From Pseudogemmobacter bohemicus (GTDB lineage Bacteria > Pseudomonadota > Alphaproteobacteria > Rhodobacterales > Rhodobacteraceae), in assembly GCF_003290025.1 (NCBI RefSeq), contig NZ_QNHG01000002.1, positions 896,417-960,416 on the forward strand: a stretch of DNA of 64,000 nucleotides, in the 5' to 3' direction. The notes under the pieces were generated by a model. The model was not told the DNA's origin. It was given only the letters and a program-made list of their open reading frames with translations, and made no database searches. Positions 29,577 to 56,817 of this stretch are shown piece by piece (the stretch's first letter is position 1; the number at the start of each line of letters is the position of its first letter). A program made the translations under genes and the position numbers.

Positions 29577-31442
29577 ATGGATATGCAGACTTCGGCGCTG
29601 ACCCGTGCCCGCCATCAGCTTGAAACGCAAGGGCGTTTTCCCGGCGGTGCGCTGCCCGGGGATATCACGGAAAGCTGGCTGCGCAGCCTGTCGCATGGCC
29701 TTGATCCGCTGGAGCGGAGCCGGCGGCTGATCCAGTCCTCCACCGAATTCACCGCGACCTGTCAGATGCATGCCGATCTGATCCGCTTCGCGCGGCCGGA
29801 ACTGGAACTCTTGTTCGACCAGATTGCGGGGTCGAATTTTATGATCGCGCTCGGCTCGCCCGAGGGGGTGGTGCTGGACACCATGCATGACCCGCAATTC
29901 GCCGAGACCGAGGCCGGCGCCCAGGTGATCCCCGGCTCGGTCTGGAGCGAGGAACTGCGCGGCACCAATGCGATGGGGGTCTGTATCGCGACGGGGCGCC
30001 CCGCCCAGGTCTATGGCGGCGAGCATTTTTTGCGCGCCCATGGCGATGTCTCCTGCATCTCCGCGCCGATTTTTGACGGGGCGGGGCGGCTGGCCGGGGT
30101 GCTGGATGCGTCCTCGATGTCGGCGGTCAGGCAGCAACATACGGCGGCCCTGGTGCAGATGTCGGCGTCGAGCATCGAGAACAGTCTGATCCGCGCCCGC
30201 CATGATCGCAGCATCGTGCTGCAATTCCACCCGCGTCCGGAATATCTCGGCACGCTGTCGATGGGGATGCTGGTCCTGGGCGAAGACCTCACCGTCACGG
30301 CGATCAACCGCAAGGGCGAGATGTTCCTGACCGGTTTCCCGCGCCTGATGGGGGAGAGCTTCGACCGCATTTTTGAACAGCCTTTCGCCGCGATCCAGCG
30401 CCGTCTGGCCGAGGGAGAGACGCTGCGCATCCGCGACCGGATCGGATCGGCCGTGTCTTTGCGCGCGGTGGCGAACCGGGCGAGTTTCGCGCTGGCGCGG
30501 CGGCTCCGTCCGGTGGCAGTCGAGGAGGCGCCAGCCCGGAACCTCTTTCGCGATGTGGTGGTCGAGGATGCGGCGCTGTGGCAGCGGCTTCAGGCGCTGC
30601 CCGATGCGGCGCGGCGTGGCGTGGTGATTGCGATCAGCGGCGAGACCGGCACCGGCAAGGCGCTGATCGCGCGGCTGGCCCATGCGGCGATGGGGCGGCA
30701 GGGGCCGCTTGTCGTGCTGGATGGCCGGATGCCGGGCGACGCCGATCTGCCGCAGCTGCTGGGCGCGGAGGGGCAGCCGGGGCTGTTGCAGCAGGCGAAT
30801 GGCGGCACATTGCTGCTTGATGAGGTGACGGCGCTGCCGCAGATGGTGCAGGCGGCGCTGGCCGCCGTGATGGATAGCGGCGAATACCGCCAGCCCCGGA
30901 CCGGCGCGCTGATCCGCTGCGATCTGCGGCTGGTCAGCGTGACCAGCGAAGCGGATGGGCTGGCGGGGCTGCTGCCGGCCCTTCGCTACCGGCTGGAAGG
31001 GTTCCGGCTGGAGCTGCCGCCCCTGCGCAAACGCAGCGATCTGGCGGCGCTGGCCTCGCGCTTCGCGCGCACGGTGCGGCACGAGGCGCGAATTTCCGAT
31101 CCGGCGCTGGCGCGGCTGGGGGCACATGACTGGCCCGGCAATCTGCATGAGCTGCGCGCCACCATCATCCAGGCCATGCTGACCTGCGCCGATGAGGTGC
31201 TGGAGCTGCGCGACCTTGACCCGCTCTTGCCGCCGGATGGGGCGCCGGAGGAGGCCGAATGCTGCAACCAATGCGCGGGCGTTCCCTGGAAGGAAAGCCA
31301 GTGCGAAGCGATCCGCGCTGCAGTGCAGCGCCATGAGGGCAATGTCTCGCTGGCGGCGCGGGCGCTTGGCATGTCGCGCACCACGATCTACAAACATCTG
31401 GGTGATCAGCCCCAGGCATCACTTCGGCCGCGCAACCTCTGA
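29577..31442 (+). CDS. AcoR-like Fis-family regulator (second copy), lacking GAFTGA
   Basis: 621 residues: GAF sensor domain (about 60-200), PAS-like linker (LGTLSMGMLVLGEDLTVTAI), AAA+ domain with Walker A GETGTGKALI and Walker B GTLLLDEVTALP, and C-terminal Fis HTH (SLAARALGMSRTTIYKHL). Between the two Walker motifs the usual GAFTGA loop is deleted: the chain runs from DLPQLLGAEGQPGLLQQANG straight to Walker B. It should not open sigma-54 promoters. A Cys-rich patch (ECCNQC) precedes the HTH. It is divergent from the dehydrogenase/ABC operon with operator-like palindromes between. Its end overlaps the convergent sigma-54 gene. Confidence 0.82.
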   Translation: MDMQTSALTRARHQLETQGRFPGGALPGDITESWLRSLSHGLDPLERSRRLIQSSTEFTATCQMHADLIRFARPELELLFDQIAGSNFMIALGSPEGVVLDTMHDPQFAETEAGAQVIPGSVWSEELRGTNAMGVCIATGRPAQVYGGEHFLRAHGDVSCISAPIFDGAGRLAGVLDASSMSAVRQQHTAALVQMSASSIENSLIRARHDRSIVLQFHPRPEYLGTLSMGMLVLGEDLTVTAINRKGEMFLTGFPRLMGESFDRIFEQPFAAIQRRLAEGETLRIRDRIGSAVSLRAVANRASFALARRLRPVAVEEAPARNLFRDVVVEDAALWQRLQALPDAARRGVVIAISGETGTGKALIARLAHAAMGRQGPLVVLDGRMPGDADLPQLLGAEGQPGLLQQANGGTLLLDEVTALPQMVQAALAAVMDSGEYRQPRTGALIRCDLRLVSVTSEADGLAGLLPALRYRLEGFRLELPPLRKRSDLAALASRFARTVRHEARISDPALARLGAHDWPGNLHELRATIIQAMLTCADEVLELRDLDPLLPPDGAPEEAECCNQCAGVPWKESQCEAIRAAVQRHEGNVSLAARALGMSRTTIYKHLGDQPQASLRPRNL

Positions 31443-32643
31443 CTGCGGATCGGAATTCCCAGCTCTTCCCGATATTGGCGACGGTTCGCCGCGCCAGCGG
31501 TAAGCCTTCGCTGCGCAGCATTTCCGCCAGAGCCGCATCGCCCAGCGGGGCCTCGGGGTCTTCGCCCGCGATGATCTGGCCCAGCCGGTGCCGGATCGCC
31601 GAACCCGCCATGCCGCCCCCGCGCGACGGCCCGCTATAAAAAAGGCTGCACAAAGTCCGCATCCCATGCGGCGTTTCGACCAGCAGATCGCGGGCCACCC
31701 GACCGACCGTGCTGTCATGCAGCCCCAGCCCGGCGGCGATTTCCGACCGGCTGAGTGCCCTGATCGCGCCGGGTCCATGGTCAAGAAAGCCGCGCTGCCG
31801 CAGCAAAACTGCCCGAGACACTGCCAGCACCGTTCGGTTGCGACGCTCTACAATCGAGGCGATCCATTCCGCTTCGGCCCGGACGGCGCGCAGGGCGGCG
31901 CCGGCCTGTGCGCGCGGCGCGAGGCTCAGCACCGGCAGCGTGCTGCGGTTCAAGTCGATTTGCCAGCCGGTTGCTGCGCGCGAGACGATCACATCCGGCG
32001 CCCGGATCGGGGCGGTGCTGCCGCCAAAGGCGAGGCCCGGGCGCGGATCCATCCGCCGGATCTGCGCGAGGCAGGTCTGCACCAACCCGATGGCCAGACC
32101 GGCTGCCCTGGCCACCGCCTCTGGTCCCGTTGCCACCAGGTCAAGATGGCGCAGAACCGCCTCCATCGCAGCGTTCAGCTGACCGCGCTCCCGCGCCTGG
32201 ATGCGCAGACAATCGGCAAGGTCCCGGGCGAAAAGGCCGGCCGGCTCCAGTTCGTGCTGCAATGCAGCAAGTATATACTCCGCCTCCCGCAGCGAGCGCC
32301 CGGCGGCAGCGGCAATTGCGGGCAGCGGCCGGTCCAGCCAGCCATTGCCGTCCAGCGCCTCGACAAAGGCCATGGAGAGCGCCTCATCCGCCCGCGCTGC
32401 GGCAATCATACGCAATTGCGCCATCACATGCGCGTAAAGACCATCCGGCGCGCTGCCCTCTTCGCCGGTTTCACCCGCATTGCCAGCCGGCAGCCGTAAC
32501 CGCAGAAACGGGTTCGCTGCGGCGCGGCGAGACAGCTCTGCCGTCAGGTCCTCATTCGAGAGCCGCAGCAGGTTCACCGCCTGGATCTGGCGGAAGCCCA
32601 GCGTTTGGCGCTGGCTTTGCGTCAGGCGTGAGGCTACCGTCAT
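31406..32643 (-). pseudogene. rpoN: sigma-54 factor, frameshifted inside the RpoN box
   Basis: The N-terminus shows sigma-54 region I (SQRQTLGFRQIQAVNLLRLS, then LTAELSRRAAANPFL), followed by the core-binding region and the DNA-binding domain (ALSRSEIAAGLGLHDSTVGR and CSLFYSG). In the RpoN box the frame reads ARRTVAN and then departs into unrelated residues. Removing the shift near 31475 (one base missing) restores A-R-R-T-V-A-x-Y-R-E-E-L-G-I-P-I-R-S and a natural stop at 31406, giving about 412 residues. The box contacts the -24 promoter element, so the present frame should be inactive. It may be a locus-specific RpoN paralogue. A sequencing indel cannot be excluded. Confidence 0.85.
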
Positions 32644-32672: not shown

Positions 32673-33674
32673 TTGGCGCATCGGGCATTTGATCAACCCA
32701 TTGGACCTGAACGTTTCTACCGCGAAATGTCGCCGCAGCTCGCGGCGCGTTTGCGGCAGATGTGGTCCGCGCGCGGGCATGATCTCGACAAGCTCTGGGG
32801 CGAATGTATCCGGGACCTGCCGGGCTTTCGCCCGCTGCCCGCGACCGAGCGGCCCGAGGCCGACAGTCGCGCGCATGACCGTCTTTGCCTCTTTGACCAG
32901 GCGCTGATCTGGGTCATGGCGCTGAACCGTGCCGCCGGGGCCGGTATGCGGCTTGAAGGGCTGCGGCTCGCGCGGGATCAGTTCTGCGCGCTGCATATCC
33001 TCAGCGGGCGGGTGATCGAGACGGTATCGGCGATCCGGCTGCTTGTGCTCTCGGAACTGGCGGTGCCGGCGTTGCAGCTGGCGCGCTCGGTTTCCGAGGA
33101 TGTCGATATGCTGCTGGCGCTTTTGCTGCGCAGAAAACTGGCGCAGCAATTTGTCGCCTGCCACAGCGCTGACGAGGCGAATGACTTCTGGCGCCGCCAT
33201 ATCGCGGGGGGGCGCGCCTTCCGGCTGGTGGCCGAAAAGCTTTACGCCATCGGCCTCGATCATTCCGATCAGAGCGAATATGGTCGCTGGCGGCGCGAGG
33301 TGCTGACATTGCTGGGCTCGGCGGTTCACAGCTCTCCGCTGGGCCAGGGGGAACGCGGACGTGACGCCGCCTGGCCGGCCAATCCGGTCGCGCGGGACTG
33401 TCTGGAATTCGTGACGCACCGCCTGCACGAGCTTTGCGCCTGGGCGCATCTGATTGATATCGGGCTGGAGGAGGATCTCACGATGATCGCCGCGGTCGGG
33501 GCGCCGGAGGCGCGGTTGCTGGGCTTTTCGGCCGGGTCGCGCGATATTCTGCTCGACCAGATGCGATGGGCAATGGTCGGTCAGGGCGCGGCCCAGACCG
33601 GGACGGTCGAAGCGGGGGCAGCGGGCGCCACCTCCGGGCCCGGCCTCTTCAATGCGGGGCGGGCGCTGCACTGA
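32673..33674 (+). CDS. uncharacterised protein, 333 aa, divergent from rpoN
   Basis: The start is proposed at a TTG at 32673 with GGGGAGGAG five bases upstream; an ATG at about 32728 (MSPQLAARL) is the alternative. The protein is predicted mainly helical, soluble, with no signal peptide. It has a central segment VISA-type helix pair (LVLSELAVPALQLARSVSED) and an R-R-x-L-A-Q-Q-F stretch. I do not recognise the family. It is divergent from rpoN with only ~29 bases between starts and converges on the small gene of the WD40 cluster, overlapping it by 26 bases. Confidence 0.6.
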   Translation: MAHRAFDQPIGPERFYREMSPQLAARLRQMWSARGHDLDKLWGECIRDLPGFRPLPATERPEADSRAHDRLCLFDQALIWVMALNRAAGAGMRLEGLRLARDQFCALHILSGRVIETVSAIRLLVLSELAVPALQLARSVSEDVDMLLALLLRRKLAQQFVACHSADEANDFWRRHIAGGRAFRLVAEKLYAIGLDHSDQSEYGRWRREVLTLLGSAVHSSPLGQGERGRDAAWPANPVARDCLEFVTHRLHELCAWAHLIDIGLEEDLTMIAAVGAPEARLLGFSAGSRDILLDQMRWAMVGQGAAQTGTVEAGAAGATSGPGLFNAGRALH

Positions 33675-33834
33675 TCTTGTCGCTGGCGATCCAGCGCGCC
33701 GCCAGAACCAGGGTGCCCATCGCGAAATCCTTGCCATGGGCGGCGATCATCTCTTGCGAGATTTCGGCGATCCTGGCGAAGAACGCATCCTTGCTGGCAT
33801 CCTCATCCGTTTGTTTCTGCAGGGCTTCACTCAT
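33649..33834 (-). CDS. small uncharacterised protein, 61 aa
   Basis: Starts at the ATG at 33834, 15 bases after the WD40 gene stop, with an AAGGA-like site. Acidic/polar N-terminus (QKQTDEDASKD) then helices (FFARIAEISQEMIAAHGKDF) and a short hydrophobic stretch (GTLVLAARWIA). It is cotranscribed with the WD40 gene. Function unknown. Confidence 0.55.
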   Translation of the reverse strand: MSEALQKQTDEDASKDAFFARIAEISQEMIAAHGKDFAMGTLVLAARWIASDKISAAPAPH

Positions 33835-33848
33835 GTCGGATCCTTTCC

Positions 33849-35027
33849 TTATTTGAAGAGCTGTTCGGGCAGGGTCACCAGCGCGGCCGAGCCTGCTGCC
33901 GTGCCGATGGCGAGATGCAGACCGTCCGCCGACCAGGCCAGCGCGGTGACCGCAGAGCCATCGGCATGGCGCAGCGGCATTTCCTCGGGCTGGCCGATCC
34001 GGGCGATGGAGACGGCGCCATCGGCAGTTCCGAGGGCGATCAGATCGCGGCGGGGATGGGCGGCGAGTTTGTCGATCAGCACGAGGCCCGGGCGGCCGGT
34101 CTTCAGCGCGCCGGTCATCTGGTTGCCGGTCATCTGGTTGCCGGTCTGGCCGTCGCCCAGCGGCGGCTCGGCCAGCGACCAGCCGGCGGCGCGGAAGGCG
34201 CCCGAGGCAAACACCGCCCCGGCGCTTTTGCTGAAGGCGATTGCCGAGGGCGCGGCGCGGAAATTGCCGATCCGCGCGGTGGTGCCATCCGCCCGCCGCA
34301 AGAGCCATATCCCGTCCTTGCCGTTCGACCCTGCAACCCAGGCGCCGTCGGCCGAGAAACCCAATGGCCCCTTGCCGCCGAGCGGATGGCTTTCATAGCC
34401 CTGGCGCGGCTGGCCGATCAGCACTGTCTCTTCCAGCATCACGGCGAGCGAGCGGTCATCGGGGGCGAAGGCCAGCGCATGCGCCGGGCCAGGGGTCAGC
34501 AGCCCGATCAGCCGCGCCATCCCCTCTTCCTCATGCAGATCGGTGCGGCCGTCGCGCGCAATGGCGACCCTGCCGGCCCCATCCGTGGCAATGGCGAAAA
34601 TCGGGCTGGCCTTATCGGTCATGGCGATCACCTGGCCGCGCGGGGTGACGCGGTGAATGCGCCCATCCCGCCCCGCGGCGATCAGCCCGATACTGCCCGA
34701 GGCCGCCAGCATCGCCGCCCCATCGGCCAGCTCCGGTGTCAGCACCGGCTGAGCCACCGGCTTTTCACGCGGCCGGATGGTCGAGCGACCGGAATCCGCC
34801 TCGACCCGCATCCGGCTGATCGGGCCATCGGCATCCTCCAGCGCCATCAGGGCGAGGCGGCCATCTTCCAGTGCGAAGCCGGCGATCTTGCCGGCGGCGT
34901 CGAAAGCGAGGCCGGAAATGCCGGCCTCAAGTTGCCAGCTGCGCGCCAGCAGATCGAAAAGCGGAGATTGGACTGCCTGTTGCGGCGCGGGTCTGGCCGG
35001 CGCCTCCGGGGTGGCGGTGTCGCTCAT
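33849..35027 (-). CDS. WD40-like beta-propeller protein
   Basis: A 392-residue protein made of repeated beta-blades of the WD40/Nucleoporin type (e.g. ISGLAFDAAGKIAGFALEDGRL, then HALAFAPDDRSLAVML and VTALAWSADGLHLAIGT). No signal peptide, so cytoplasmic. Such propellers are scaffolds. A 15-base tandem repeat in the gene (34111-34149) gives GNQMTGNQMTG in one loop. The gene lies between a 61-residue and a 93-residue gene on the same strand (gap of 11 bases to the latter). The cluster has no recognised pathway. Confidence 0.75.
   Translation of the reverse strand: MSDTATPEAPARPAPQQAVQSPLFDLLARSWQLEAGISGLAFDAAGKIAGFALEDGRLALMALEDADGPISRMRVEADSGRSTIRPREKPVAQPVLTPELADGAAMLAASGSIGLIAAGRDGRIHRVTPRGQVIAMTDKASPIFAIATDGAGRVAIARDGRTDLHEEEGMARLIGLLTPGPAHALAFAPDDRSLAVMLEETVLIGQPRQGYESHPLGGKGPLGFSADGAWVAGSNGKDGIWLLRRADGTTARIGNFRAAPSAIAFSKSAGAVFASGAFRAAGWSLAEPPLGDGQTGNQMTGNQMTGALKTGRPGLVLIDKLAAHPRRDLIALGTADGAVSIARIGQPEEMPLRHADGSAVTALAWSADGLHLAIGTAAGSAALVTLPEQLFK
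34111..34149. repeat. 15-base tandem repeat inside the WD40 gene
   Basis: CCGGTCATCTGGTTG occurs twice in a row and a third partial copy follows. The unit is a multiple of three, so it adds five residues (GNQMT-type) per copy to a propeller loop without breaking the frame. Confidence 0.8.
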
Positions 35028-35038
35028 CTACAATGTCC

Positions 35039-35320
35039 TCATGTCAGATCGGAGAGTTCCCGCCCCAGGGCGGAGAGTTGCTTTTCCAGCGCCTCGACCT
35101 GCAATTCACAGGTCTCGGCGGTCAGTTTCGCGGCGATCTCAATGCGCTCCGCCTCGGCCAAAGCGGGGCCGGGATCATCCTCGGCCATCTGCCGCGCAAA
35201 GCCGGCGGCAGCGACCTTCTGCAAAAGGCGGTGATATTCGCCGGTCATCCGGCTCAGTTCGGCAGTGATGCGGAACTGGTCCGACAGAATCTCTTGCATG
35301 CTGCGCTTTTCGCTGCTCAT
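35039..35320 (-). CDS. small coiled-coil protein, 93 aa
   Basis: Starts at MSSEKRSMQEIL (ATG 35320). The whole protein is charged and helical with heptad-like spacing (ILSDQFRITAELSRMTGEYH and LQVEALEKQLSALGRELSDL), typical of a dimeric coiled coil. It lies 11 bases upstream of the WD40 gene and is divergent from the 91-residue gene. Function unknown; a partner or adaptor for the WD40 protein is a guess. Confidence 0.6.
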   Translation of the reverse strand: MSSEKRSMQEILSDQFRITAELSRMTGEYHRLLQKVAAAGFARQMAEDDPGPALAEAERIEIAAKLTAETCELQVEALEKQLSALGRELSDLT

Positions 35321-35379
35321 CTTTGCCCCCATCCGCCGCCCGATCCGCCGCAATGCCCGGCCGCAAGCAGAAGCCGCAT

Positions 35380-35655
35380 ATGCAGACGCCCAGTCCCGAG
35401 ACCCGTTTCCTTGCCGCCATTGGCCGCGCGGCGTTGGCCGAATTCGGAGCCGGTCATCCGCTTGCCCTGGCCACCAAAGCGGCGGCTGAGGGTGGCTCCC
35501 CCGCCGATGCCGCGCGGGTTCAGGAGATACTGGCGGGGCTGGAAGACGGCGTTCGTGAACGATTGCTCGCTTTCGCCCATCGCGAGATGCGCGAGGATAT
35601 CGCGGCGATCTGGGGTCTGCTGCCGGGCGCAGCGCAACCGGGTGGGATGCATTGA
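35380..35655 (+). CDS. small uncharacterised protein, 91 aa
   Basis: Starts MQTPSPETRFLAAIG at an ATG at 35380; an upstream in-frame ATG at 35353 is possible, and neither has a strong ribosome site. The protein is Ala/Leu/Glu-rich and helical, with no membrane segment. It is divergent from the coiled-coil gene and converges on the 154-residue gene. Function unknown. Confidence 0.45.
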   Translation: MQTPSPETRFLAAIGRAALAEFGAGHPLALATKAAAEGGSPADAARVQEILAGLEDGVRERLLAFAHREMREDIAAIWGLLPGAAQPGGMH

Positions 35656-35660
35656 TCCGG

Positions 35661-36125
35661 TCATAATCTGAGCCGCCGCAGCTCGGCCTCTTCGGCGTTC
35701 AGGCTGGAGACGACGCGGGAAATCCCCTCGCTGAAGCGTTTCTCGGCAATGTCGATATGGGCGGCTATGGCGTCCCAGATATCGACCCGCATCAGTGTCT
35801 CGACGTCACCGGTCAGGATCTCGATCTCGCCCAGGCGAAAGCTGCGCGCGAGAGAAACGCCGGTGGTGACAAATTCGCGCAGTTCGACCGCATGGCTGTC
35901 GATGAAGAAGGGCAGCAGCGGATGGCTTTCGGGGGTGACACCCGCCTGCGCCAGCCGGGTCTCAAGGAAATCGCGGAAATGGCTGTGCAGGATTTCCTGG
36001 CTCTGGCCGAGAAAGCGCATGGTGAAGACCAGGTCATCCGGCGCGCGGGCCAGCATGGCCTCGGCCGTTGCGCGCGAGGGGCTCTGGCCGGGAAGCAGCG
36101 GGTCAGGGTGTATCGGGTCTGACAT
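35661..36125 (-). CDS. uncharacterised helical protein, 154 aa
   Basis: A 154-residue soluble helical protein: MSDPIHPDPLLPG, then LVFTMRFLGQSQEILHSHF, LPFFIDSHAVELREFV and a Glu/Arg-rich C-terminus (SLNAEEAELRRLRL). I do not recognise the family. It is the outermost gene of the WD40 cluster and borders the AT-rich control region of the hydroxylase operon. Confidence 0.6.
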   Translation of the reverse strand: MSDPIHPDPLLPGQSPSRATAEAMLARAPDDLVFTMRFLGQSQEILHSHFRDFLETRLAQAGVTPESHPLLPFFIDSHAVELREFVTTGVSLARSFRLGEIEILTGDVETLMRVDIWDAIAAHIDIAEKRFSEGISRVVSSLNAEEAELRRLRL

Positions 36126-36255: not shown

Positions 36256-36457
36256 GTTACGAATGTAACATTTCTTTCCAATGGGTGATTACAGTTTTTC
36301 AGCCGCGTTACATGCTGCAGCGCCGCATAAATTTGCCGCACTCTGACAAAGATGAAATCGTCCCGAATCGCGCAAATGAGGGGTGTAACGCCCGCTGCGT
36401 TACAGATTTGTGCAACGCCGGTCGGAACCGGCGTGACAGTTGTAACGAAACGCTACG
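36256..36457. promoter_or_regulatory. cluster of TGTAACG inverted repeats (activator sites)
   Basis: Four elements: GTTAC-N4-GTAAC at 36256-36269; a single CGTTACA at 36306-36312; TGTAACG-N7-CGTTACA at 36384-36404 (perfect 7-base arms); and TGTAACG-AAA-CGCTACG at 36441-36457 (imperfect). They lie 130-340 bases upstream of the sigma-54 promoter, the usual enhancer distance, and probably bind the activator encoded at 39643-41661. Confidence 0.6.
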
Positions 36458-36590
36458 CTGACCGGTGGCGCGGGTCTGGGGCCGCAAAAAGCCGGCCCAA
36501 AAATTATGCAAAAAATAAAATCATATATTTCAATCCATTACCTCAGGTCGCGCACCCGTCTGGCAAAAATCTTCGGGGCGAGGCCAAAGC

Positions 36591-36606
36591 TGGCACAGGT
36601 TCTGCA
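36591..36606 (+). promoter_or_regulatory. sigma-54 (-24/-12) promoter
   Basis: TGGCACAGGTTCTGCA carries the invariant GG and GC with exactly 10 bases between, matching TGGCAC-N5-TTGCA with one mismatch. It is ~265 bases before the hydroxylase-chaperonin start and downstream of the activator sites. Confidence 0.7.
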
Positions 36607-36870
36607 TGTATCCCTGGCACAATAAGGCGGTTCTCCGATGCGGAAAGGCGCCACAAGAACGAAGGAATGGGAGGAGAAGCGAGGCCACCGGGAAACGGCA
36701 GCACGCTTGCGCATTGTCGTTATTGCCCCTGGCCCCGTTGCCCGGAACCTTTGCCGTGACCTGACCCGGCCAGCCGTCCTCTAGGCGGAGCGGCCGGAAA
36801 ACCCGGGCGGATCAACCGCCCACCGGCAGGGACCGCCAGTCCCGACCGTCAACATCAGGAGATTCATGGC

Positions 36871-38436
36871 ATGACGCAACTGACGCTCAACAAGATCACC
36901 GCGCAACGCGGGATCTCGGTCGGCGAAGCGACGAAGCGGATCTCTGACCTTGGCTGGAACCCCAGCTATGTTCAGGAAGCCGCGACATTCCCGACCGATT
37001 ACAAGATCGCCAAAGCGCCGCGAGACCCGATGAAACAGGTGCTGCGCTCTTACTTCCCGATGCAGGAAGAGAAAGACAACCGCGTTTACGGCGCGCTCGA
37101 CGCGGCTTTGCGCGGCGATATGTTCCGCAACGTCGAGCCCCGCTGGGTCGAGTGGATGAAGCTCTTCCTCGCGATCATTCCCTTCCCGGAAATCTCGGCC
37201 GCGCGGTCGATGGCGATGGTTGCCCGGATCGCGCCGGGTGAGGATCTGCGCACCGGTTTTACCATGCAGATGGTTGACGAGTTCCGCCATTCCACCATTC
37301 AGATGAACCTGAAGAAGTGGTATATGGAAAACTATATCGACCCGGCCGGCTTTGATATTACCGAAGAAGCGTTCGGTAAATGCTATGCGACCACCATCGG
37401 CCGCCAGTTTGGCGAGGGCTTCATCACCGGCGACGTGATGACCTCGGCCTGCATGTACCTGACCGTGGTCGCGGAAACCGCCTTCACCAACACGCTTTTC
37501 GTCGCCATGCCGTCGGAAGCCGCCCGCAACGGCGACTACGCGCTGCCGACCGTGTTCCTTTCGGTGCAGTCGGATGAATCGCGCCATATCGGCAATGGCC
37601 ACTCGCTCTTGATGGCTGCGCTGAAAGAGCCGGAGAACCATCTCCTGCTGGAGCGCGATCTGCGGTATGCGTTCTGGCAGAACCATGCGATCGTCGATGC
37701 CGCCATCGGCACGCTGATCGAATACGGCACCCGTGAACAGCTGGGCGCGGCACGGCAGGTGCGGGCCTCGGCCAGCCAGACCACGGTGATCGGTGGCGCC
37801 GGTGATGCGGGCGCGATCACCGCGCGGCGTCTCCAGGTGCAGCGCCAATATGACATCGCGCCGCCGAATATCGAACAGGACAAGCTGCGCGAGCGGCTGG
37901 CGAAACTTTCGGGCGGCACGGCGGTGATCCATGCCGGCGGCCTTACCCCGGTGGAGCAAAAGCGCAAGATCCAGCTGATCGAGGACTCGCTTTACGCCAT
38001 CCGCGCGGCGGTCGAAGAGGGCGTGGTGCCCGGCGGCGGCTCGGCTCTGGCCCATACCGCGCCGTTGCTGGATGCGGTCGTGGCCGATGCTTCGGGCGAT
38101 GTGGCGGCGGGAATCGAGCTGGTGCGCTCGGTCCTGACCCGGCCGCTGGCCCGGATCGCGCTGAATGCGGGGTCTGACCCGAATGCGGTGATCGCGGAAG
38201 TGGTGCGGTCAGAGAGTGGCGTCGGCTTCGATGCGTCCCAGGGCAAGTTCCGCGACATGATCGAGGCCGGCATCGTCGACCCGGTCCGTGTCACCTGCTC
38301 GGCGCTGGCCAATGCGGCCTCGGTCGCGGCGCTGATCCTCACGACCGAGACCCTGATCGGTCATGCCGAGGACTATGTCGATCCGACGGCCGGACCGGCG
38401 CTTGGCGGCGGATCAGAACGGCTTGGCCGGCAGTGA
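36871..38436 (+). CDS. in-frame chimera: propane-monooxygenase-type hydroxylase N-terminal half + GroEL-type chaperonin C-terminal half
   Basis: 521 residues. Residues 1-287 match the large subunit of propane/acetone soluble diiron monooxygenases (PrmA/MimA): both diiron motifs are present (DEFRH, E137/H140; DESRH, E236/H239), and the family ending AFWQNHAIVDAAIGTLIEYG. From about residue 288 the chain becomes chaperonin: GAARQVRASASQTTVIGGAGD, KLRERLAKLSGG, AAVEEGVVPGGGSAL, and an equatorial C-terminus with GFDASQGKFRDMIEAGIVDP. In intact operons the order is hydroxylase, reductase, small hydroxylase, coupling protein, chaperonin, dehydrogenase. A deletion of several kb from inside prmA to inside the groEL-like gene would produce exactly this frame. 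The ribosome site is AGGAG. Oxygenase and full chaperonin function are unlikely. Confidence 0.88.
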   Translation: MTQLTLNKITAQRGISVGEATKRISDLGWNPSYVQEAATFPTDYKIAKAPRDPMKQVLRSYFPMQEEKDNRVYGALDAALRGDMFRNVEPRWVEWMKLFLAIIPFPEISAARSMAMVARIAPGEDLRTGFTMQMVDEFRHSTIQMNLKKWYMENYIDPAGFDITEEAFGKCYATTIGRQFGEGFITGDVMTSACMYLTVVAETAFTNTLFVAMPSEAARNGDYALPTVFLSVQSDESRHIGNGHSLLMAALKEPENHLLLERDLRYAFWQNHAIVDAAIGTLIEYGTREQLGAARQVRASASQTTVIGGAGDAGAITARRLQVQRQYDIAPPNIEQDKLRERLAKLSGGTAVIHAGGLTPVEQKRKIQLIEDSLYAIRAAVEEGVVPGGGSALAHTAPLLDAVVADASGDVAAGIELVRSVLTRPLARIALNAGSDPNAVIAEVVRSESGVGFDASQGKFRDMIEAGIVDPVRVTCSALANAASVAALILTTETLIGHAEDYVDPTAGPALGGGSERLGRQ

Positions 38437-38506: not shown

Positions 38507-39550
38507 ATGAAGGCCGCAAGACTCTACGAATATGATCCCGCGATGAATGTGCAGCTGGTGATCGAGGATATCCCGGCGCCGACCATTCTTGCCCCCGATG
38601 AGGTGATCGTGCGTGTCGGCGCGGCGGGGCTGTGCCGCACCGATCTGCATATCATCGAAGGCGTGTGGAAGCCGATCATGGATCCGCACAATACCCTGCT
38701 GCCCTATGTGATGGGCCATGAAAATGCCGGCTGGGTCGAGGATGTCGGCTCAAACGTCAAGACGGTGAAACCGGGTGACGCGGTGATCTGCCATCCGCTG
38801 CGCACCTGCGGCGTCTGTCTGAACTGCCATCACGGCCATGATATGTATTGCGATCATGGCCTCTTTCCGGGGCTCGGGCTGGATGGTGGTTTTGCCGAGT
38901 ATTTCAAAACGAATGAACGTTCATTAATTAAGCTGAACACCGATATCATGCCGCTGGATGTGGCGCCGATGGCCGATGCCGGCATCACCGCCTACCGTGC
39001 GGCAAAGCGGGCGGCAAAGATGCTGGCGCCCGGAACCTGGTGCGCGGTGCTGGGGGTGGGTGGCCTTGGCCATATCGCATTGCAATCTCTGCGCGAGCTT
39101 TGTGGCGCAAGGCTGATCGCCATTGACCGCGAACCCGGCGCGCAGCTGCTGGCGAAAGAGCTGGGCGCCGATGTGGTGCTGGATGGTGGCCCGAACCTGA
39201 TCGCCGAACTGAAGGAAATCACCGGCGGTGGCGCCCATGTGGTGATCGACTTCGTGGGGGAGCTGGGGGTGGAAAATATCTGCTGGAAGCTGTTGCGCAA
39301 GGGCGGCGAATGCATCGTCGTGGGCTATGGCGGCACGGTCGAAGTGCCGACGCTGGAGCTTGTCGCCAATGAGATCAAAATCGGCGGCAGCCTGGTCGGT
39401 GACTATACCGAACTGGTCGAGCTGATGGAGCTGAACTCAGACGGCAGGGTGAAGATGCATTACACGCCCTATAAGCTCGACGACATCAACACCGCAATTG
39501 ACGACTTCAAGAACCGTCGCTTTACCGGCCGGGGCGTGATCGTTCCCTGA
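38507..39550 (+). CDS. zinc-type alcohol dehydrogenase (third copy), propane-operon type
   Basis: Start at ATG 38507 with AAGGAG; 347 residues. Catalytic zinc residues in GLCRTDLHIIEG and GHENAGWVEDVG; here the structural-zinc loop is complete (TCGVCLNCHHGHDMYCDHG). NAD fold LGVGGLGHIALQ. An NAD-dependent secondary alcohol dehydrogenase in this position follows the chaperonin gene in propane/acetone monooxygenase operons and would oxidise 2-propanol to acetone or related alcohols. It remains intact although the oxygenase genes are deleted. Confidence 0.88.
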   Translation: MKAARLYEYDPAMNVQLVIEDIPAPTILAPDEVIVRVGAAGLCRTDLHIIEGVWKPIMDPHNTLLPYVMGHENAGWVEDVGSNVKTVKPGDAVICHPLRTCGVCLNCHHGHDMYCDHGLFPGLGLDGGFAEYFKTNERSLIKLNTDIMPLDVAPMADAGITAYRAAKRAAKMLAPGTWCAVLGVGGLGHIALQSLRELCGARLIAIDREPGAQLLAKELGADVVLDGGPNLIAELKEITGGGAHVVIDFVGELGVENICWKLLRKGGECIVVGYGGTVEVPTLELVANEIKIGGSLVGDYTELVELMELNSDGRVKMHYTPYKLDDINTAIDDFKNRRFTGRGVIVP

Positions 39551-39642: not shown

Positions 39643-41661
39643 TTACTCGTAAGTGCGTTTGATGCCATAGGTCTTGAGCTTGCGGTAAAGCGTCGGGCGC
39701 GAGATCCCCAGCACCTGGGCCACGCGGGTGAGATTGCCCTCTTCGGCGGTCAGGGTGCGCCGGATCGCCTGCTCTTCCATATCGGTGAGATTGACCGGGG
39801 CCACCGGCCCGGACGACGCGGCCACCGTCTCGCGCGGCATGCTGCGGATCGCCACCGGCAGATCCTCGGGTGTCACCATGCCGCCATTGACCATCAGATG
39901 CAGCCGTTCGAACAGGTTGCGCATCTCGCGGACATTGCCGGGCCAGCCATAATGCGCAATCATCGTGGCGGCCTCTTCCGACAGGATCAGCGCCTCACGA
40001 TGCAGCCGCGTCGCCACGGCGCGGTTGAAATGATCGGCCAGGGCGAGGATGTCACAGGGGCGTTCGCGCAAGGGCGGCACCTCGATCGTCATGGCGCCGA
40101 TGCGGTAATAGAGATCACGGCGAAAGCGACCGGCCTCGACCTCTTCGCGTAAGTCGCGGTTGGTCATCGCGACCAGCTGCACATCGACCTGACGACGTTT
40201 CGAACAGCCGATGCGATAGACCGCGCGCTGCTCCAGCACCCGCAGCAGATAGGGCTGCAATTCCAGCGGCATCTCGCCAATCTCATCGAGGCAAAGCACG
40301 CCGCCATCGGCCTGTTCGAACTTGCCGGGCTTGCCGTCGCGGCTGGCGCCGGTAAAGGCGCCCGGCGCATGGCCGAACAGTTCGGAGCCGAACAGCTCGG
40401 CCGAGATCGCGCCACAATTGACGGTGATGAAAGGCGCACGGCCCTTATGCGGTGCGGCGGTGTGGATGAGGCGGGCGAAAAGCTCTTTGCCGGCGCCGGT
40501 TTCGCCCTGGATCAGCACGACCGAGCCAGCCGCCGCCGTGCGCCGCGCCAGATCGACGGCGGCGGTGAATTTCGGCGCCTGGCCGACCATCAGCAGCTCA
40601 TCGCGCTCGGCCCCGGCGCGGGGCGGAATGCGGAAAGGCTCCATCGGCGCGGCCGGAGCGGCGGCTGCGGCCAGCCGGGGCGGCAGGATCAGTGCGGCGC
40701 CACTGAATTCGCCGTCAAGGAACAGGCGCGAGATTCCGCTGGGGCGCAGATGCGGCGGGATGGCACGGGCGATGTCCTGATCGCTCATCGACCCCGACAG
40801 CGGGATGAATTGCTGCCCGAGCGACAGTTTCGGGGCCGCCTGGTCGCGCGTCGCTCCCGAGGGCAGGCGATGATACATAACCCGCCCGATCCGGTCGAGG
40901 ATCAGCACCGCATCGCGGCTGCCCTGGGCGGGGCCATTGTCGAGAAACTCTTCCAGCAGCCTGGTGCGCCGCATCTCCTGGCGCTCGGCCAGCGCCGCCT
41001 CGATCTCACGCGCGACCGAGGCGATCATCGCGACATTATGCGGGCGAAAGATCGCGGGCGGGCCAGAGAGATCCACCGCCCCGATGATACGCTGATCGAC
41101 CGGATCGCGCACCGGAGCGGCGGCGCAGGTCCAGGCCTTGATGCCCTGGCAGAAATGCTCTGATGCATGCACCAGCGTCGGGCGACCCGAGCGGATCGCA
41201 GTGCCGATCCCATTGGTCCCGATAACGGCCTCATCCCATTTCCCGCCCTGAATCAAATGGATAGAGCGTGCCGCATTATGGGTTCGCAGATCGCCGATCT
41301 GTTCCAGAACCATACCGTCGGCATCGGTCAGGATCAAAAGCGCATTGGCCTCGGACAAAAGCGGCCCGATCTTTTCAAACGGCTCGCGGGCGGCGACGCG
41401 CAGATCGGCATTCTTCTGCCGCGCGTCCTCAAGCATCTCCTCGGTCTCGTCCAGGGGCGCCAGCTCGGCCGTGGCGTCGATCCCGGAGGCGAGACTGCGT
41501 GACCAGGATTCAAGGATCTCGCGGCGAACGCCGGAGGTGCGGCTTTGTTCGATGTCGCGATAGGTGAGGAAATCCTCCCAGGCGCGCATGGTGGCGCGCT
41601 GGTCGAGCCAGTCATCGAACATGCCGGTCCGGGTGTGGAAACCCGAAAGCGCGTCGGTCAT
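39643..41661 (-). CDS. sigma-54-dependent activator, MimR/AcoR type
   Basis: 672 residues with a GGGAGG ribosome site. N-terminal GAF region (WSRSLASGIDATAEL, then EAVIGTNGIGTAIRSGRP and HFCQGIKAWTCAAAPVRDP), AAA+ domain with Walker A GETGAGKELFAR, an intact GAFTGA loop (GHAPGAFTGASRDG), Walker B CLDEIGEMP, and a C-terminal Fis HTH (RVAQVLGISRPTLYRKL). Unlike the two other AcoR-like proteins here it can engage sigma-54. MimR-type activators control propane/acetone monooxygenase operons; the sigma-54 promoter at 36591 and the TGTAACG sites are its likely targets. Confidence 0.9.
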   Translation of the reverse strand: MTDALSGFHTRTGMFDDWLDQRATMRAWEDFLTYRDIEQSRTSGVRREILESWSRSLASGIDATAELAPLDETEEMLEDARQKNADLRVAAREPFEKIGPLLSEANALLILTDADGMVLEQIGDLRTHNAARSIHLIQGGKWDEAVIGTNGIGTAIRSGRPTLVHASEHFCQGIKAWTCAAAPVRDPVDQRIIGAVDLSGPPAIFRPHNVAMIASVAREIEAALAERQEMRRTRLLEEFLDNGPAQGSRDAVLILDRIGRVMYHRLPSGATRDQAAPKLSLGQQFIPLSGSMSDQDIARAIPPHLRPSGISRLFLDGEFSGAALILPPRLAAAAAPAAPMEPFRIPPRAGAERDELLMVGQAPKFTAAVDLARRTAAAGSVVLIQGETGAGKELFARLIHTAAPHKGRAPFITVNCGAISAELFGSELFGHAPGAFTGASRDGKPGKFEQADGGVLCLDEIGEMPLELQPYLLRVLEQRAVYRIGCSKRRQVDVQLVAMTNRDLREEVEAGRFRRDLYYRIGAMTIEVPPLRERPCDILALADHFNRAVATRLHREALILSEEAATMIAHYGWPGNVREMRNLFERLHLMVNGGMVTPEDLPVAIRSMPRETVAASSGPVAPVNLTDMEEQAIRRTLTAEEGNLTRVAQVLGISRPTLYRKLKTYGIKRTYE

Positions 41662-41785: not shown

Positions 41786-42279
41786 TCAGCGAAACCCCAG
41801 GCGTTCGGATATTTCTTCGGACAGCAGGGTCTCGGGGCAGGCCTGGTCGATGATCTGACCATCCAGCTCGCCGATTTTCCCGGTCACCTCATCGGGCAGG
41901 GGCGAGAAGAATCCGTTCTCCTTCGAGGCGATGGCGAAGTAGCGCGTGCCCTCCTGGCGGCGGATTTCGCCGAGATGCAGCACCTGGCGCCCCGAGCCGC
42001 TGTCATAGGCGACGACGCGGTTGTTCACGCTGACCTTGACGCGGATTTCCCCGCTGTCGGAACTGATCCGTGCGCCGGCGCCGCCGTCATAGATCAGCGT
42101 GCCCTCGGGTGCCGGTGCCGCGCTTGCGCCAGCGGCTTTCGCGCGCTTGTTGGCGCTGTAACTGCCCTGTGTCAGGTGATCGGCGATCTGGGTGATGGCA
42201 CCCTGATTCGCCTGAATATGCGTCTTGCGCGTTCATCCTCGCGGCGCGGACCGTCGCGTTTCGATATGATGTCGACCAT
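41786..42279 (-). pseudogene. uncharacterised protein, frameshifted near its start
   Basis: A good start (GGAGG, then ATG at 42279) gives MVDIISKRDGPRREDERAR, but that frame degenerates. After one base is restored near 42220 the sequence continues as HIQANQGAITQIADHLTQG, a Lys/Ala linker, LIYDGGAGARISSDSGEIRV, and a C-terminal half ending ISERLGFR at 41786, about 165 residues in all. I do not recognise the family. It lies upstream of, and in the same direction as, the activator gene. Confidence 0.55.
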
Positions 42280-42494: not shown

Positions 42495-43433
42495 TCAGTC
42501 GCGGCGCCAGCCCGGCAAACTGGTCAGCCCGCTGGCCTGTCTGAGCCGGTTGCCGCAGTCGCGAACCACCTCGGCGATCTGCATCAGCTGGGCCTCCATC
42601 GCGCTGGATTTGCGCCAGACCATACCGATGGACCGCAGCGGCTGCGGGTCGCGAAACCGCGCCACCGAGACGGCGGCCGAGCGGGTCTCGATCGGCACCG
42701 CCATCTCGGGGATCAGCGTCACGCCGACGCCGACGCCGACCATCTGCACCAGGGTGGAAAGCGAGCTTCCGTCCAGCATCTCGCGCGGCTGGCTGGAGGG
42801 CACATCGCAAAAAGACAGCGCCTGCTGGCGGAAGCAATGACCCTCCTCCAGCAGCAAAAGCCGCATCTCGCGCAGCTTGTCGCGGTGCGGGACCGGCTTT
42901 TCCGCGTCAGCCGCCGGGCGGATCAGCACGAAGCGCTCGTTGAACAGCGACACCTCGGTCAGGGCGGGTTCCGAGACGGGCAGTGCCAGAATCGCCGCGT
43001 CGATGCGGCCATCCAGCAGCTCCTCGATCAGGCGCGAGGTCATGCTTTCGCGCAGAATCGGGCTGAGGCCGGGGAACAGCACTGCCAGCCGGGTGATGAC
43101 CGAGGGCAGCAGATAGGGCGCGATGGTCGGGATGACGCCAAGCCGCAGCTTGCCCGCAGGGGCGCCACCGGCGCTGCGGGCAAGCGCATCAAGGTCTTCA
43201 AGGATCGCAAGCATTGTCTGCGCCCGCTGATGCACCATCTCGCCAAAGGCGGTCAGCCGCACGCCGCGCGGGCCGCGTTCCAGCAGGGCCGCGCCGGCAC
43301 CTTCCTCCATCTCTTTGATCTGCATCGACAAAGCCGGCTGGGTGACCGCACAGGCCTCGGCGGCCGCACTGAAAGTGCCCAGACGCGCCAGGGCGTCGAA
43401 ATAGCGGATCTGTTTCAGGGTCAGGCTGCGCAT
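42495..43433 (-). CDS. oxyR: OxyR-type LysR regulator
   Basis: 312 residues: N-terminal LysR winged HTH (FSAAAEACAVTQPALSMQIK) and a C-terminal sensor domain with the peroxide-sensing cysteine pair C200 and C209 in GHCFRQQALSFC, nine residues apart as in OxyR. It is divergent from katG, which it most likely activates when oxidised by H2O2. A palindrome overlaps its start codon. Confidence 0.92.
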   Translation of the reverse strand: MRSLTLKQIRYFDALARLGTFSAAAEACAVTQPALSMQIKEMEEGAGAALLERGPRGVRLTAFGEMVHQRAQTMLAILEDLDALARSAGGAPAGKLRLGVIPTIAPYLLPSVITRLAVLFPGLSPILRESMTSRLIEELLDGRIDAAILALPVSEPALTEVSLFNERFVLIRPAADAEKPVPHRDKLREMRLLLLEEGHCFRQQALSFCDVPSSQPREMLDGSSLSTLVQMVGVGVGVTLIPEMAVPIETRSAAVSVARFRDPQPLRSIGMVWRKSSAMEAQLMQIAEVVRDCGNRLRQASGLTSLPGWRRD

Positions 43434-43446
43434 AAGGAAACCTTAT
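43432..43446. promoter_or_regulatory. palindrome ATAAGG-AAA-CCTTAT overlapping the oxyR start
   Basis: A perfect dyad spans the oxyR start codon in the oxyR-katG divergent region. LysR proteins often bind such sites to repress their own gene and activate the divergent target. Confidence 0.5.
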
Positions 43447-43494
43447 ACACATCATCAGAATATTCAAGTTTCCCTGAGGTCTGCCCCGGGCTAG

Positions 43495-45795
<2,301 letters not shown>

Positions 45796-47419: not shown

Positions 47420-48592
47420 TCAGAACAGCGCGGGGTCGGGTTCCAGCCCCATCAGGGCGCGGCCAAGGATCTGGGCGCAGATGTTGTAATCGGTATAGGC
47501 ATGGGCGCCGGTCATATGGCTGTCGCGGAACAGGCGCTGCGCCTCGCTGTCATCGAACCAGGCTGTGCCGCCCGAGGCCGCGAAAAGCCGGTCGACCGCC
47601 TCGATGAAGATCCTGACCGCATAGGCCTGGTTGGTGCGCCAATACGCCATCTTTTCCGCATCCGGATAGACGCGGCGGGCGGCGTGGTCGCGCATGTCCT
47701 CCCAGGCCTTTTCCAGAAAAGCCCGGCCCGCCGCCACCTGATGCGCCGATTCCGCCAGCCGCATTGCCGCCGGGATGCTTTGCCCGACCTTTGCGCCGGT
47801 ATAGGCGCGGACACGGCCCTGGGTGCGGGTCTTGTAAAGCTCGATCATCCGTTCCGCGATGCCGAGACTGACGGCGGCGAAGCAGCTGGCGAAGACATAG
47901 ATAAAAGGCGTGAAATAGGTCTTGCTGTCAGGGTAAAGTGCCGCGCCGGCCGATTGCATCGACATCAGCGCAGGGACCGTTTCGATCCGGTGTTCGGGAA
48001 CGAAGACGCGGTCGACCACGATGGTTTTCGACCCCGAGCCGCGCATGCCTTTGGCGAACCAGGTGTCGCGGATGGTGTAATCCCTGCGCGGCAACACGGC
48101 GAAGGAATAGGCCTTGCCCTGGGGTGTGGCGCGCAGAAAGCCAAGGATCGCCCATTGCGCATGGTCCGACCCGCTGGACCAGCCGAATTCGCCGGAAAAT
48201 GTGATGCCGCCTTCGGTCTCTTCGGCGCGGCCATAAGGGGCGATGGAGCTGGAGGCCACCACATCGGGATCTGCCGCCCAAAGTTCGTCCTGCAGCTCTT
48301 TTGAACAGATCGCCAGCTGATGGCTGTGCTGCGCCAGCAAAGAGAACGCCCAAGCGGTCGAACCACAGGCGCCGGCAATCGCCGCGATGCAGTTTTCAAA
48401 TTCCGGCACCGGCATTTCCAGCCCGCCATAGGCTTTCGGCTGGAAGGCACGATGCAGGCCGGTGGTCTTCAAAAGCGCGATATTCCCGGCCGGGACCATG
48501 CGGTTTTCCTCGGCGAGGCTCGCACGGGCGGCGATTTCGGGCAGGACGGCTTTGACGCGGTCAAGCATCGTCAGGGGCTGGTCAAGCATCAT
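47420..48592 (-). CDS. flavin-dependent aromatic hydroxylase (HsaA-like)
   Basis: 390 residues with the acyl-CoA dehydrogenase fold of two-component phenol hydroxylases: FQPKAYGGLEMPVPEFENCI, CGSTAWAFSLLAQHSHQL, then WFAKGMRGSGSKTIVVD and a C-terminal helical domain ending HAYTDYNICAQILG. HsaA-type enzymes ortho-hydroxylate a phenol to a catechol using flavin from a separate reductase, here the adjacent gene. The extradiol dioxygenase and hydrolase in the same run would cleave and split that catechol. Confidence 0.87.
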   Translation of the reverse strand: MMLDQPLTMLDRVKAVLPEIAARASLAEENRMVPAGNIALLKTTGLHRAFQPKAYGGLEMPVPEFENCIAAIAGACGSTAWAFSLLAQHSHQLAICSKELQDELWAADPDVVASSSIAPYGRAEETEGGITFSGEFGWSSGSDHAQWAILGFLRATPQGKAYSFAVLPRRDYTIRDTWFAKGMRGSGSKTIVVDRVFVPEHRIETVPALMSMQSAGAALYPDSKTYFTPFIYVFASCFAAVSLGIAERMIELYKTRTQGRVRAYTGAKVGQSIPAAMRLAESAHQVAAGRAFLEKAWEDMRDHAARRVYPDAEKMAYWRTNQAYAVRIFIEAVDRLFAASGGTAWFDDSEAQRLFRDSHMTGAHAYTDYNICAQILGRALMGLEPDPALF

Positions 48593-55819: not shown

Positions 55820-56197
55820 TCACTCGCCGAATTTTTCAGCGATAACGTCGCGGTATTCCTTTTCGGAAAACCGCAGCAGAATTGCGTAATAGCCCACGAT
55901 GACCACGATCATCACGATCAGCGACGAGATCGAGAAAGAGTAGTCAAAGCGTGCCGTGATCAGCTCGGCTGCCGAAGCGGGGTCGCTGTAACCCAGTTTC
56001 TCCCATTGGCCGACCATGACCGGGTTCTGGCCAAGCGCCTCCCAGGTCGGGTTCTCGATGGCGACGGGCTCTTTCGAAGAGCCGGCCATGCCCATCCACA
56101 ACGGGATGTAAAGCGCGCCAATCGCCATGATCAGCAGCACGATCACGTCGACGATCTGGCCGATCTTGCTTTGGACGGGGGCGGTGTATTTAGCCAT
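55820..56197 (-). CDS. 125-aa two-pass membrane protein
   Basis: Start at 56197 with GGAGG; MAKYTAPVQSKIGQIV followed by two hydrophobic segments (VIVLLIMAIGALYIPLW and ISSLIVMIVVIVGYYAILL) with a ~50-residue loop between, which would lie on the periplasmic side if the N-terminus is inside. Overlaps the 100-residue gene by eight bases. Function unknown. Confidence 0.65.
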   Translation of the reverse strand: MAKYTAPVQSKIGQIVDVIVLLIMAIGALYIPLWMGMAGSSKEPVAIENPTWEALGQNPVMVGQWEKLGYSDPASAAELITARFDYSFSISSLIVMIVVIVGYYAILLRFSEKEYRDVIAEKFGE

Positions 56198-56492
56198 TTT
56201 TCCGCCTCCGTTTCGCATCGCGTGCCTCATCAAGGAACTGGATATCCAGCCCATACATGAAATCCCGGTCTTCGCGGTAATGGCGCAGCATCGCCAGAAT
56301 CGCCGCCGTGTTGAACAAGAGAACGATGGCGCCGCCGATCAGCAAAACCGTCCGCGCAGCACCCGAAGGTGCGAGCGACCAGGTGCCGATGGCGACAAAG
56401 ATGATCGCAAACCACAATCCCAGAACGAAGGCCCAGGCCACGGCGACATCGCGCCGGTGCATGGTCTCGATCCGTTTCGTCAGATCTGACAC
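56190..56492 (-). CDS. 100-aa two-pass membrane protein
   Basis: MSDLTKRIETMHRRDVAVAW, then two transmembrane segments (AFVLGLWFAIIFVAIGTW and TVLLIGGAIVLLFNTAAIL) and a charged C-terminal tail. A GGAGGGA ribosome site precedes it. It is the first gene of the run that includes the 125- and 57-residue proteins and the APC permease. Function unknown. Confidence 0.65.
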   Translation of the reverse strand: MSDLTKRIETMHRRDVAVAWAFVLGLWFAIIFVAIGTWSLAPSGAARTVLLIGGAIVLLFNTAAILAMLRHYREDRDFMYGLDIQFLDEARDAKRRRKNG

Positions 56493-56817
56493 GTTGCATC
56501 CCTCCCTGAGGCCCTGAAAAATGGATATTTCCGCGCCGGGCCCTGGCGTTTGTTTTCTGTGTTTGAAAACTTTTTCCCCACAGTGAGCGCGCGCTGCGAC
56601 ATTCTGTCAAGTTTCTTATGCGGGAAATTCAGGCTTTCTGCGCAGAAAACAGGCGTAATGAGAACTTTTGAAATCAGGCGGAATGCGCATGAACTCTGCA
56701 TCAGCCTGGCACAGAATTCTTGTAAAATAGCATAATTTCAGATGAATATCGGAATGCCGCGATGCGGCAATCGAGGGTCGGCGCGCGACGGTCACCGTGC
56801 AATGCACCCGTGCCTGG
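56493..56817. other. 325-base intergenic region
   Basis: Contains no gene. The half next to 56493 must carry the promoter of the permease run. A TGGCAC-like element at about 56707 lacks the -12 GC at the right spacing, so it is not a sigma-54 promoter. Confidence 0.5.

Follow-up and report, generated by a model that had tools for sequence, protein, structure and literature searches.

How a diiron hydroxylase and a GroEL-type chaperonin came to share one open reading frame in Pseudogemmobacter bohemicus, and whether the product should be regarded as a new protein or as the wreckage of an operon, is the question raised by this locus. The frame lies within a stretch of 64,000 nucleotides, hereafter the window, and can be described by three features:

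36871..38436, plus strand: chimeric open reading frame of 521 aa, open from end to end (with Pfam matches).
36871..37731, plus strand: N-terminal 287 of the 555 residues of a soluble diiron monooxygenase hydroxylase alpha subunit (MimA/PrmA-like), with six putative iron ligands (Pfam, DNA alignment and alignment to sMMO).
37732..38436, plus strand: C-terminal 234 residues (311-544) and stop codon of the operon's GroEL-like chaperonin (MimG/PrmG-like) (Pfam, NCBIfam and DNA alignment).

The original prediction of an in-frame chimera holds, since the frame is open over 521 aa, both Pfam domains are recovered (PF02332 Phenol_Hydrox at residues 29-253, E 6.7e-61; PF00118 Cpn60_TCP1 at residues 286-496, E 8e-25) and DNA alignment resolves the product into alpha-subunit residues 1-287 followed in frame by GroEL-like residues 311-544. 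The alpha part retains the Phenol_Hydrox domain and the ligand set of the MimA/PrmA type (two ExxH pairs plus two Glu), all six putative diiron ligands (E107, E137, H140, E202, E236 and H239) being placed by alignment to the sMMO alpha chain, whose corresponding residues we take to be the diiron ligands. Residues 1-287 had been described as the hydroxylase with both iron motifs. The motifs are indeed there, but the protein around them is the N-terminal half of an alpha subunit that is about 555 aa at full length. For the other side of the join, the assignment of residues from about 288 to 521 to the C-terminal part of the operon chaperonin is confirmed by homology to the GroEL-like gene from R311 onwards in the DNA alignment. 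In a complete Cpn60 protein the equatorial domain would have both its parts and the GDGTTT motif would be present, and the chimera lacks GroEL residues 1-310; the motif occupies residues 85-90 of the intact GroEL-like protein of the same-genus genome G401 and hence falls within the missing portion. Matches of the NCBIfam GroEL models to the chimera begin at profile position about 297 at the earliest and lie below the cut-offs. Nor does the window hold a complete soluble diiron monooxygenase system, as the beta subunit, the reductase and the coupling protein are unmatched anywhere in it.

The origin of the two halves becomes apparent from relatives in which the operon is unbroken, namely the same-genus genomes G401 and G396 (read by tblastn) and the plasmids pAMI4 of Paracoccus aminophilus and p2 of Gemmobacter fulvus (read directly). 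Their genes run in the order alpha, reductase, beta, coupling protein, amidohydrolase, Fe-S-assembly protein, GroEL-like protein and alcohol dehydrogenase, with an extra alcohol dehydrogenase between coupling protein and amidohydrolase in G401 and G. fulvus, an IS5 element between reductase and beta in P. aminophilus, and a convergent sigma-54 activator after the operon in three of the four, the exception being G. fulvus. In all four relatives the operon genes match over their whole or nearly whole length and without stops. Gene content and order are those of the MimABCD-MimG and PrmABCD-GroEL operons, whereas the operon of the window is gutted, with two gene ends fused and the intervening genes gone. 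Published accounts describe mimABCD together with mimR and an associated chaperonin (PMC8394569), assign the GroEL-like MimG a role in the maturation of MimAC (PMC7176365) and mention that GroEL is thought to aid folding of the hydroxylase (PMC11057499); alpha, reductase, beta and coupling components and a GroEL-like partner are named in PMC8394569 and PMC7176365. By analogy with these relatives, the substrate of the operon would be propane or acetone.

Alignment to the unbroken operons narrows the join, which had been placed at about 37729-37735 and is confirmed to keep the frame, to four bases:

37728..37731, plus strand: deletion join, where the two parental sites have CACC in common (G401, P. 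aminophilus) or ACC (G396) (alignment to unbroken operons).

On either side of these bases the window stays collinear with G401, G396, P. aminophilus and G. fulvus (L036), and in the first three nucleotide identity is 81-87% both left and right of the join. Homology to alpha stops at 37731 in all four unbroken operons and homology to the GroEL-like gene continues without a gap in the DNA alignment, T287 being the last alpha codon before the join and R311 the first GroEL-like residue after it. The block absent from the window measures 7,484 bp against G401, 6,406 bp against G396, 7,474 bp against P. aminophilus (IS5 included) and 7,471 bp against G. fulvus; in G401 it contains the rest of alpha, the reductase, beta, the coupling protein, an alcohol dehydrogenase, the amidohydrolase, the Fe-S-assembly protein and the first part of the chaperonin. 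Collinear flanks against an unbroken relative and a single clean join are what a deletion-derived fusion is expected to leave. Four unbroken operons with the same gene order, a missing block lying between the two halves and the collinear flanks thus support the proposal that a propane/acetone monooxygenase operon suffered one internal deletion. We are confident, short of certainty, that a single recent deletion of about 7.4 kb in a mim/prm-type operon fused the 5' half of alpha to the 3' part of the GroEL-like gene, and about 7.4 kb of a propane/acetone-type soluble diiron monooxygenase operon would have been lost in one event.

Misassembly of two distant loci had been offered as another explanation. 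It is not supported, because the halves sit where synteny with one operon places them and because the searches recovered no missing gene from other parts of the assembly, which comprises 5,607,742 bases on 16 contigs and is listed as 100% complete. Protein queries with the small (beta) subunit and the coupling protein found no match in this assembly, while the same beta query was positive in G401 and G396 and the coupling protein query matched both at their operon loci. Of 208 candidates for an 8,001-bp DNA query covering the missing block and its edges, 40 were scored, and seven matches resulted. Two of these are the ends flanking the join, three are groEL-like stretches from other contigs, and the remaining two are short (56-75 bases); the reductase part of this query was unmatched among the same scored candidates. 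The three other matches of the chimera in its own genome are likewise all to the GroEL half. These searches thus show no second copy of the missing genes, and the halves did not come from separate, distant loci. The chimeric frame is also the single PF02332 match in the assembly, and no second hydroxylase that could use the operon was found there.

A different kind of artefact is that the strain carries an intact operon, and that a chimeric read allowed the contig to be closed or the contig shows a deleted minority. The fusion occurs in one genome only, and candidate frameshifts inside and outside the locus could mean that the assembly is prone to indels, which both speak for such an error. 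However, the three to four bases shared at the join would by themselves be too short to mislead an assembler, the contig carrying the window is 1.44 Mb long and the missing genes were found on none of the 16 contigs, so that we regard an assembly or library artefact as unlikely.

The restriction to one genome is seen at every level sampled (the family, genus, order and class samples overlap). Twelve of 394 family genomes match the chimera at E <= 1e-60 (at most three candidates scored per genome), its own genome in one piece and the other 11 at two separate places about 6 to 7.5 kb apart on a single contig; in the genus sample three of 13 genomes match, its own with the fusion, G396 and G401 with two separate genes. 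When a 98-residue query spanning the join was used, a full-length match came from its own genome only, both in 390 order genomes (among the matches listed, with at most 12 candidates scored per genome) and in 385 class genomes at E <= 1e-30. The best other match in the order, among those listed, had an E of 2.0e-28 and covered one side only. Hence no recurrent fusion was found in the family (394 genomes, at most three candidates scored each), genus (13), order (390, among the matches listed) or class (385) samples. On plasmids, 29 records match at E <= 1e-30, and in none does a single place account for 80% of the query; pAMI4 of P. aminophilus matches best (99% over residues 1-287). A degenerate junction pattern, run without a positive control, gave no hits in the genome_contigs set, and no report of such a fusion appeared among the papers listed from the open-licence PMC literature.

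If a single deletion created the gene, the question becomes by which route. The bases common to both parental sites number four in G401, three in G396 and four in P. aminophilus. Among 50,000 random breakpoint pairs in G401, at least four shared bases occur in 2.4% and at least three in 6.7%, so the microhomology at the join is short and only mildly beyond chance. A deletion at short microhomology is nevertheless likely, and it may have proceeded by slippage or end-joining. Recombination between long repeats was rejected, since none is reported at the join within the window. It is also conceivable that an IS-flanked deletion made the fusion and that the IS was lost afterwards, given the IS5 element in the P. 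aminophilus operon and the IS21 element beside the cut alpha gene of Shinella sp. HZN7. Yet no IS remnant is present at the join, where alpha and GroEL homology abut directly, and we consider an IS origin extremely improbable. In Shinella sp. HZN7, plasmid pShin-04 (L054 12001-13050) carries an unannotated alpha remnant cut at about residue 345 and adjoining the IS21 element, and the other operon genes queried were unmatched in 24,861 bases, except for a distant alcohol dehydrogenase (47%) and activator (47%). The same alpha gene is truncated there as in the window, but with an IS21 beside the cut and without a GroEL fusion. Another remnant is a diverged alpha gene with three in-frame stops in a genome of the same family, G250 (L055 8656-9688, G250:C11), where no other of the eight operon genes queried was matched in 19,000 bases around it.

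That the frame survived the deletion does not call for a special explanation. When alpha was joined at random to the GroEL-like gene 20,000 times, the frame was retained in 33% of cases, nearly all of them open, and an open chimera therefore requires no selection; the in-frame outcome would be luck, at one chance in three. Like other gene fusions and pseudogenes derived from deletions, the locus shows one deletion, few shared bases and two same-strand genes of one operon; it differs from them in remaining in frame over 521 codons. The fusion is ordinary in kind, a deletion-fusion remnant that ends a propane/acetone-type monooxygenase operon.

What remains around the deletion is considerable:

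36591..36606, plus strand: sigma-54-type promoter-like site TGGCACAGGTTCTGCA (GG-N10-GC) (alignment).
38507..39550, plus strand: surviving NAD(P)-dependent alcohol dehydrogenase of the operon, 347 aa, full-length open frame (tblastn and ORF).
39643..41661, minus strand: surviving sigma-54-dependent activator (GAF, sigma54_activat and Fis HTH domains), 672 aa, full length (domains and ORF comparison).
41789..42279, minus strand: companion gene of the locus (164 aa in P. aminophilus), out of frame by one base near 42217 in comparison with three relatives (alignment).
31165..32643, minus strand: operon-linked rpoN (sigma-54) paralogue, whose frame leaves that of the relatives at the RpoN box near 31474 (alignment).

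The GG and GC of TGGCACAGGTTCTGCA, which presumably correspond to the sigma-54 promoter consensus, occupy the corresponding position in each of the four unbroken operons. Both this site and the ribosome-binding site are conserved between the window and its four relatives, G. fulvus showing small changes. Transcription of the chimeric gene is plausible on this pattern of conservation, because the promoter-like site, the ribosome-binding site and the full-length activator are kept. The site is followed by a long leader (36591-36870), in which the blocks CAAGAACGAAGGA and AACCTTTGCCGTGACC are kept in all five aligned operons; its fold is a little better than those of shuffled sequences (z -1.99, with eight of 200 shuffles folding as well), and no Rfam match was found in 36300-37000.

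Several neighbouring genes are also shared with relatives. The rpoN paralogue adjoins it in the window, P. aminophilus, G. fulvus, G401 and G396, the copy in the window continuing to 492 aa. The companion gene, which lies next to the activator, is conserved in three relatives, and its P. aminophilus copy has no Pfam match. Upstream of the operon, at 33652-36125, the window and its relatives share a conserved group of genes that encode small unknown proteins and a protein of WD40-like type, and at 42495-45795 a LysR-type regulator and a katG peroxidase lie beside the operon in the window, G401 and pAMI4. Perhaps these act against peroxide from uncoupled monooxygenase. Comparison of the window with G401 (31 ORFs listed) gave multi-frame matches at three further places (34777-35662, 48016-48487 and 56193-56610), and comparison with G396 (nine ORFs listed) gave one, over the companion gene. 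The first of the three is probably not one gene, since it overlaps the WD40-like gene, which lies on the other strand; the two-frame matches to G401 ORFs at 48016-48487 and 56193-56610 could possibly be frameshifts or sequence errors. Decay across the whole locus was set aside as support, as multi-frame matches also occur outside it and the one-base frameshifts of the companion gene and rpoN may be sequence errors.

The age of the deletion can be approached through substitutions. On the branch leading to the window, singleton changes among five sequences (a count that omits sites variable among the relatives) number, synonymous against non-synonymous, 14.5 and 1.5 for the alpha half, 9 and 0 for the GroEL half; for the surviving genes they are 17 and 3 in the alcohol dehydrogenase and, among four sequences, 43.5 and 4.5 in the activator. 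A wholly neutral branch would be expected to carry about 61 non-synonymous changes, and the observed number bounds its neutral part at about 10%, which is a rough upper bound. Measured against the majority of three close genomes, the ratio of non-synonymous to synonymous changes is 5/52 = 0.096 in the alpha half (0.072-0.088 in intact genomes) and 7/52 = 0.135 in the GroEL half (0.103-0.188 in intact genomes). Little or no relaxed evolution has probably occurred in either half, and the deletion is probably recent, because the substitution patterns of both halves resemble those of intact genomes. Pairwise dN/dS of the GroEL half is 0.072, 0.105 and 0.071 with the window and 0.049, 0.054 and 0.050 among G401, G396 and P. 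aminophilus, and given these higher values it is possible that some relaxed evolution of this half followed the deletion. The alternative to recency, that the fusion is constrained, appears much less likely.

An open frame and absent relaxed selection are also expected of a selected fusion, such as a diiron-binding scaffold with a fragment of a chaperonin attached. Such a protein would accord with a frame open throughout, with the retention of all six putative iron ligands, with a majority-count ratio that falls inside the intact range in the GroEL half and exceeds it only slightly in alpha, and with the conserved promoter-like site and ribosome-binding site. Yet it is seen in one genome only, an in-frame join has a chance of one in three, half of alpha, beta, the reductase, the coupling protein and GroEL residues 1-310 are gone, and a recent deletion explains the substitution pattern equally well. 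We therefore hold a selected new fusion to be very improbable, and give equally little credence to a newborn protein made from the intact sigma-54-type promoter, in which an iron-loaded helical core would be stabilised by the chaperonin fragment and the frame kept open by benefit.

Most likely, then, the chimeric gene is dead rather than a new protein. Monooxygenase activity requires alpha together with reductase, beta, the coupling protein and the GroEL-like partner. Since the second half of alpha, the partner proteins and GroEL residues 1-310 with the GDGTTT motif are missing, the chimera, if made from the conserved promoter, would be non-functional as either parent and would probably misfold or be degraded. 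The AlphaFold2 model (mean pLDDT 39.3, from a shallow alignment and without a control run) is too poor to bear on folding. It had been suggested that the gene, if expressed, would yield a novel protein, and formally it would, but each half is without parts required for its parent's function and the join had one chance in three of being in frame. The downstream alcohol dehydrogenase may still be made, and the strain would have been without this monooxygenase since the deletion.

Automatic annotation pipelines could name the chimeric gene a monooxygenase or a GroEL, and such a gene is a trap for annotation. For the group at large, the deletion appears to be one route by which short-chain alkane and ketone oxidation is lost, the alpha remnants of Shinella (IS21) and G250 (stops) having arisen otherwise. 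For P. bohemicus itself, it represents a natural deletion of the catalytic genes in which regulator and promoter are kept, and the strain would be predicted not to grow on propane or acetone through this pathway.
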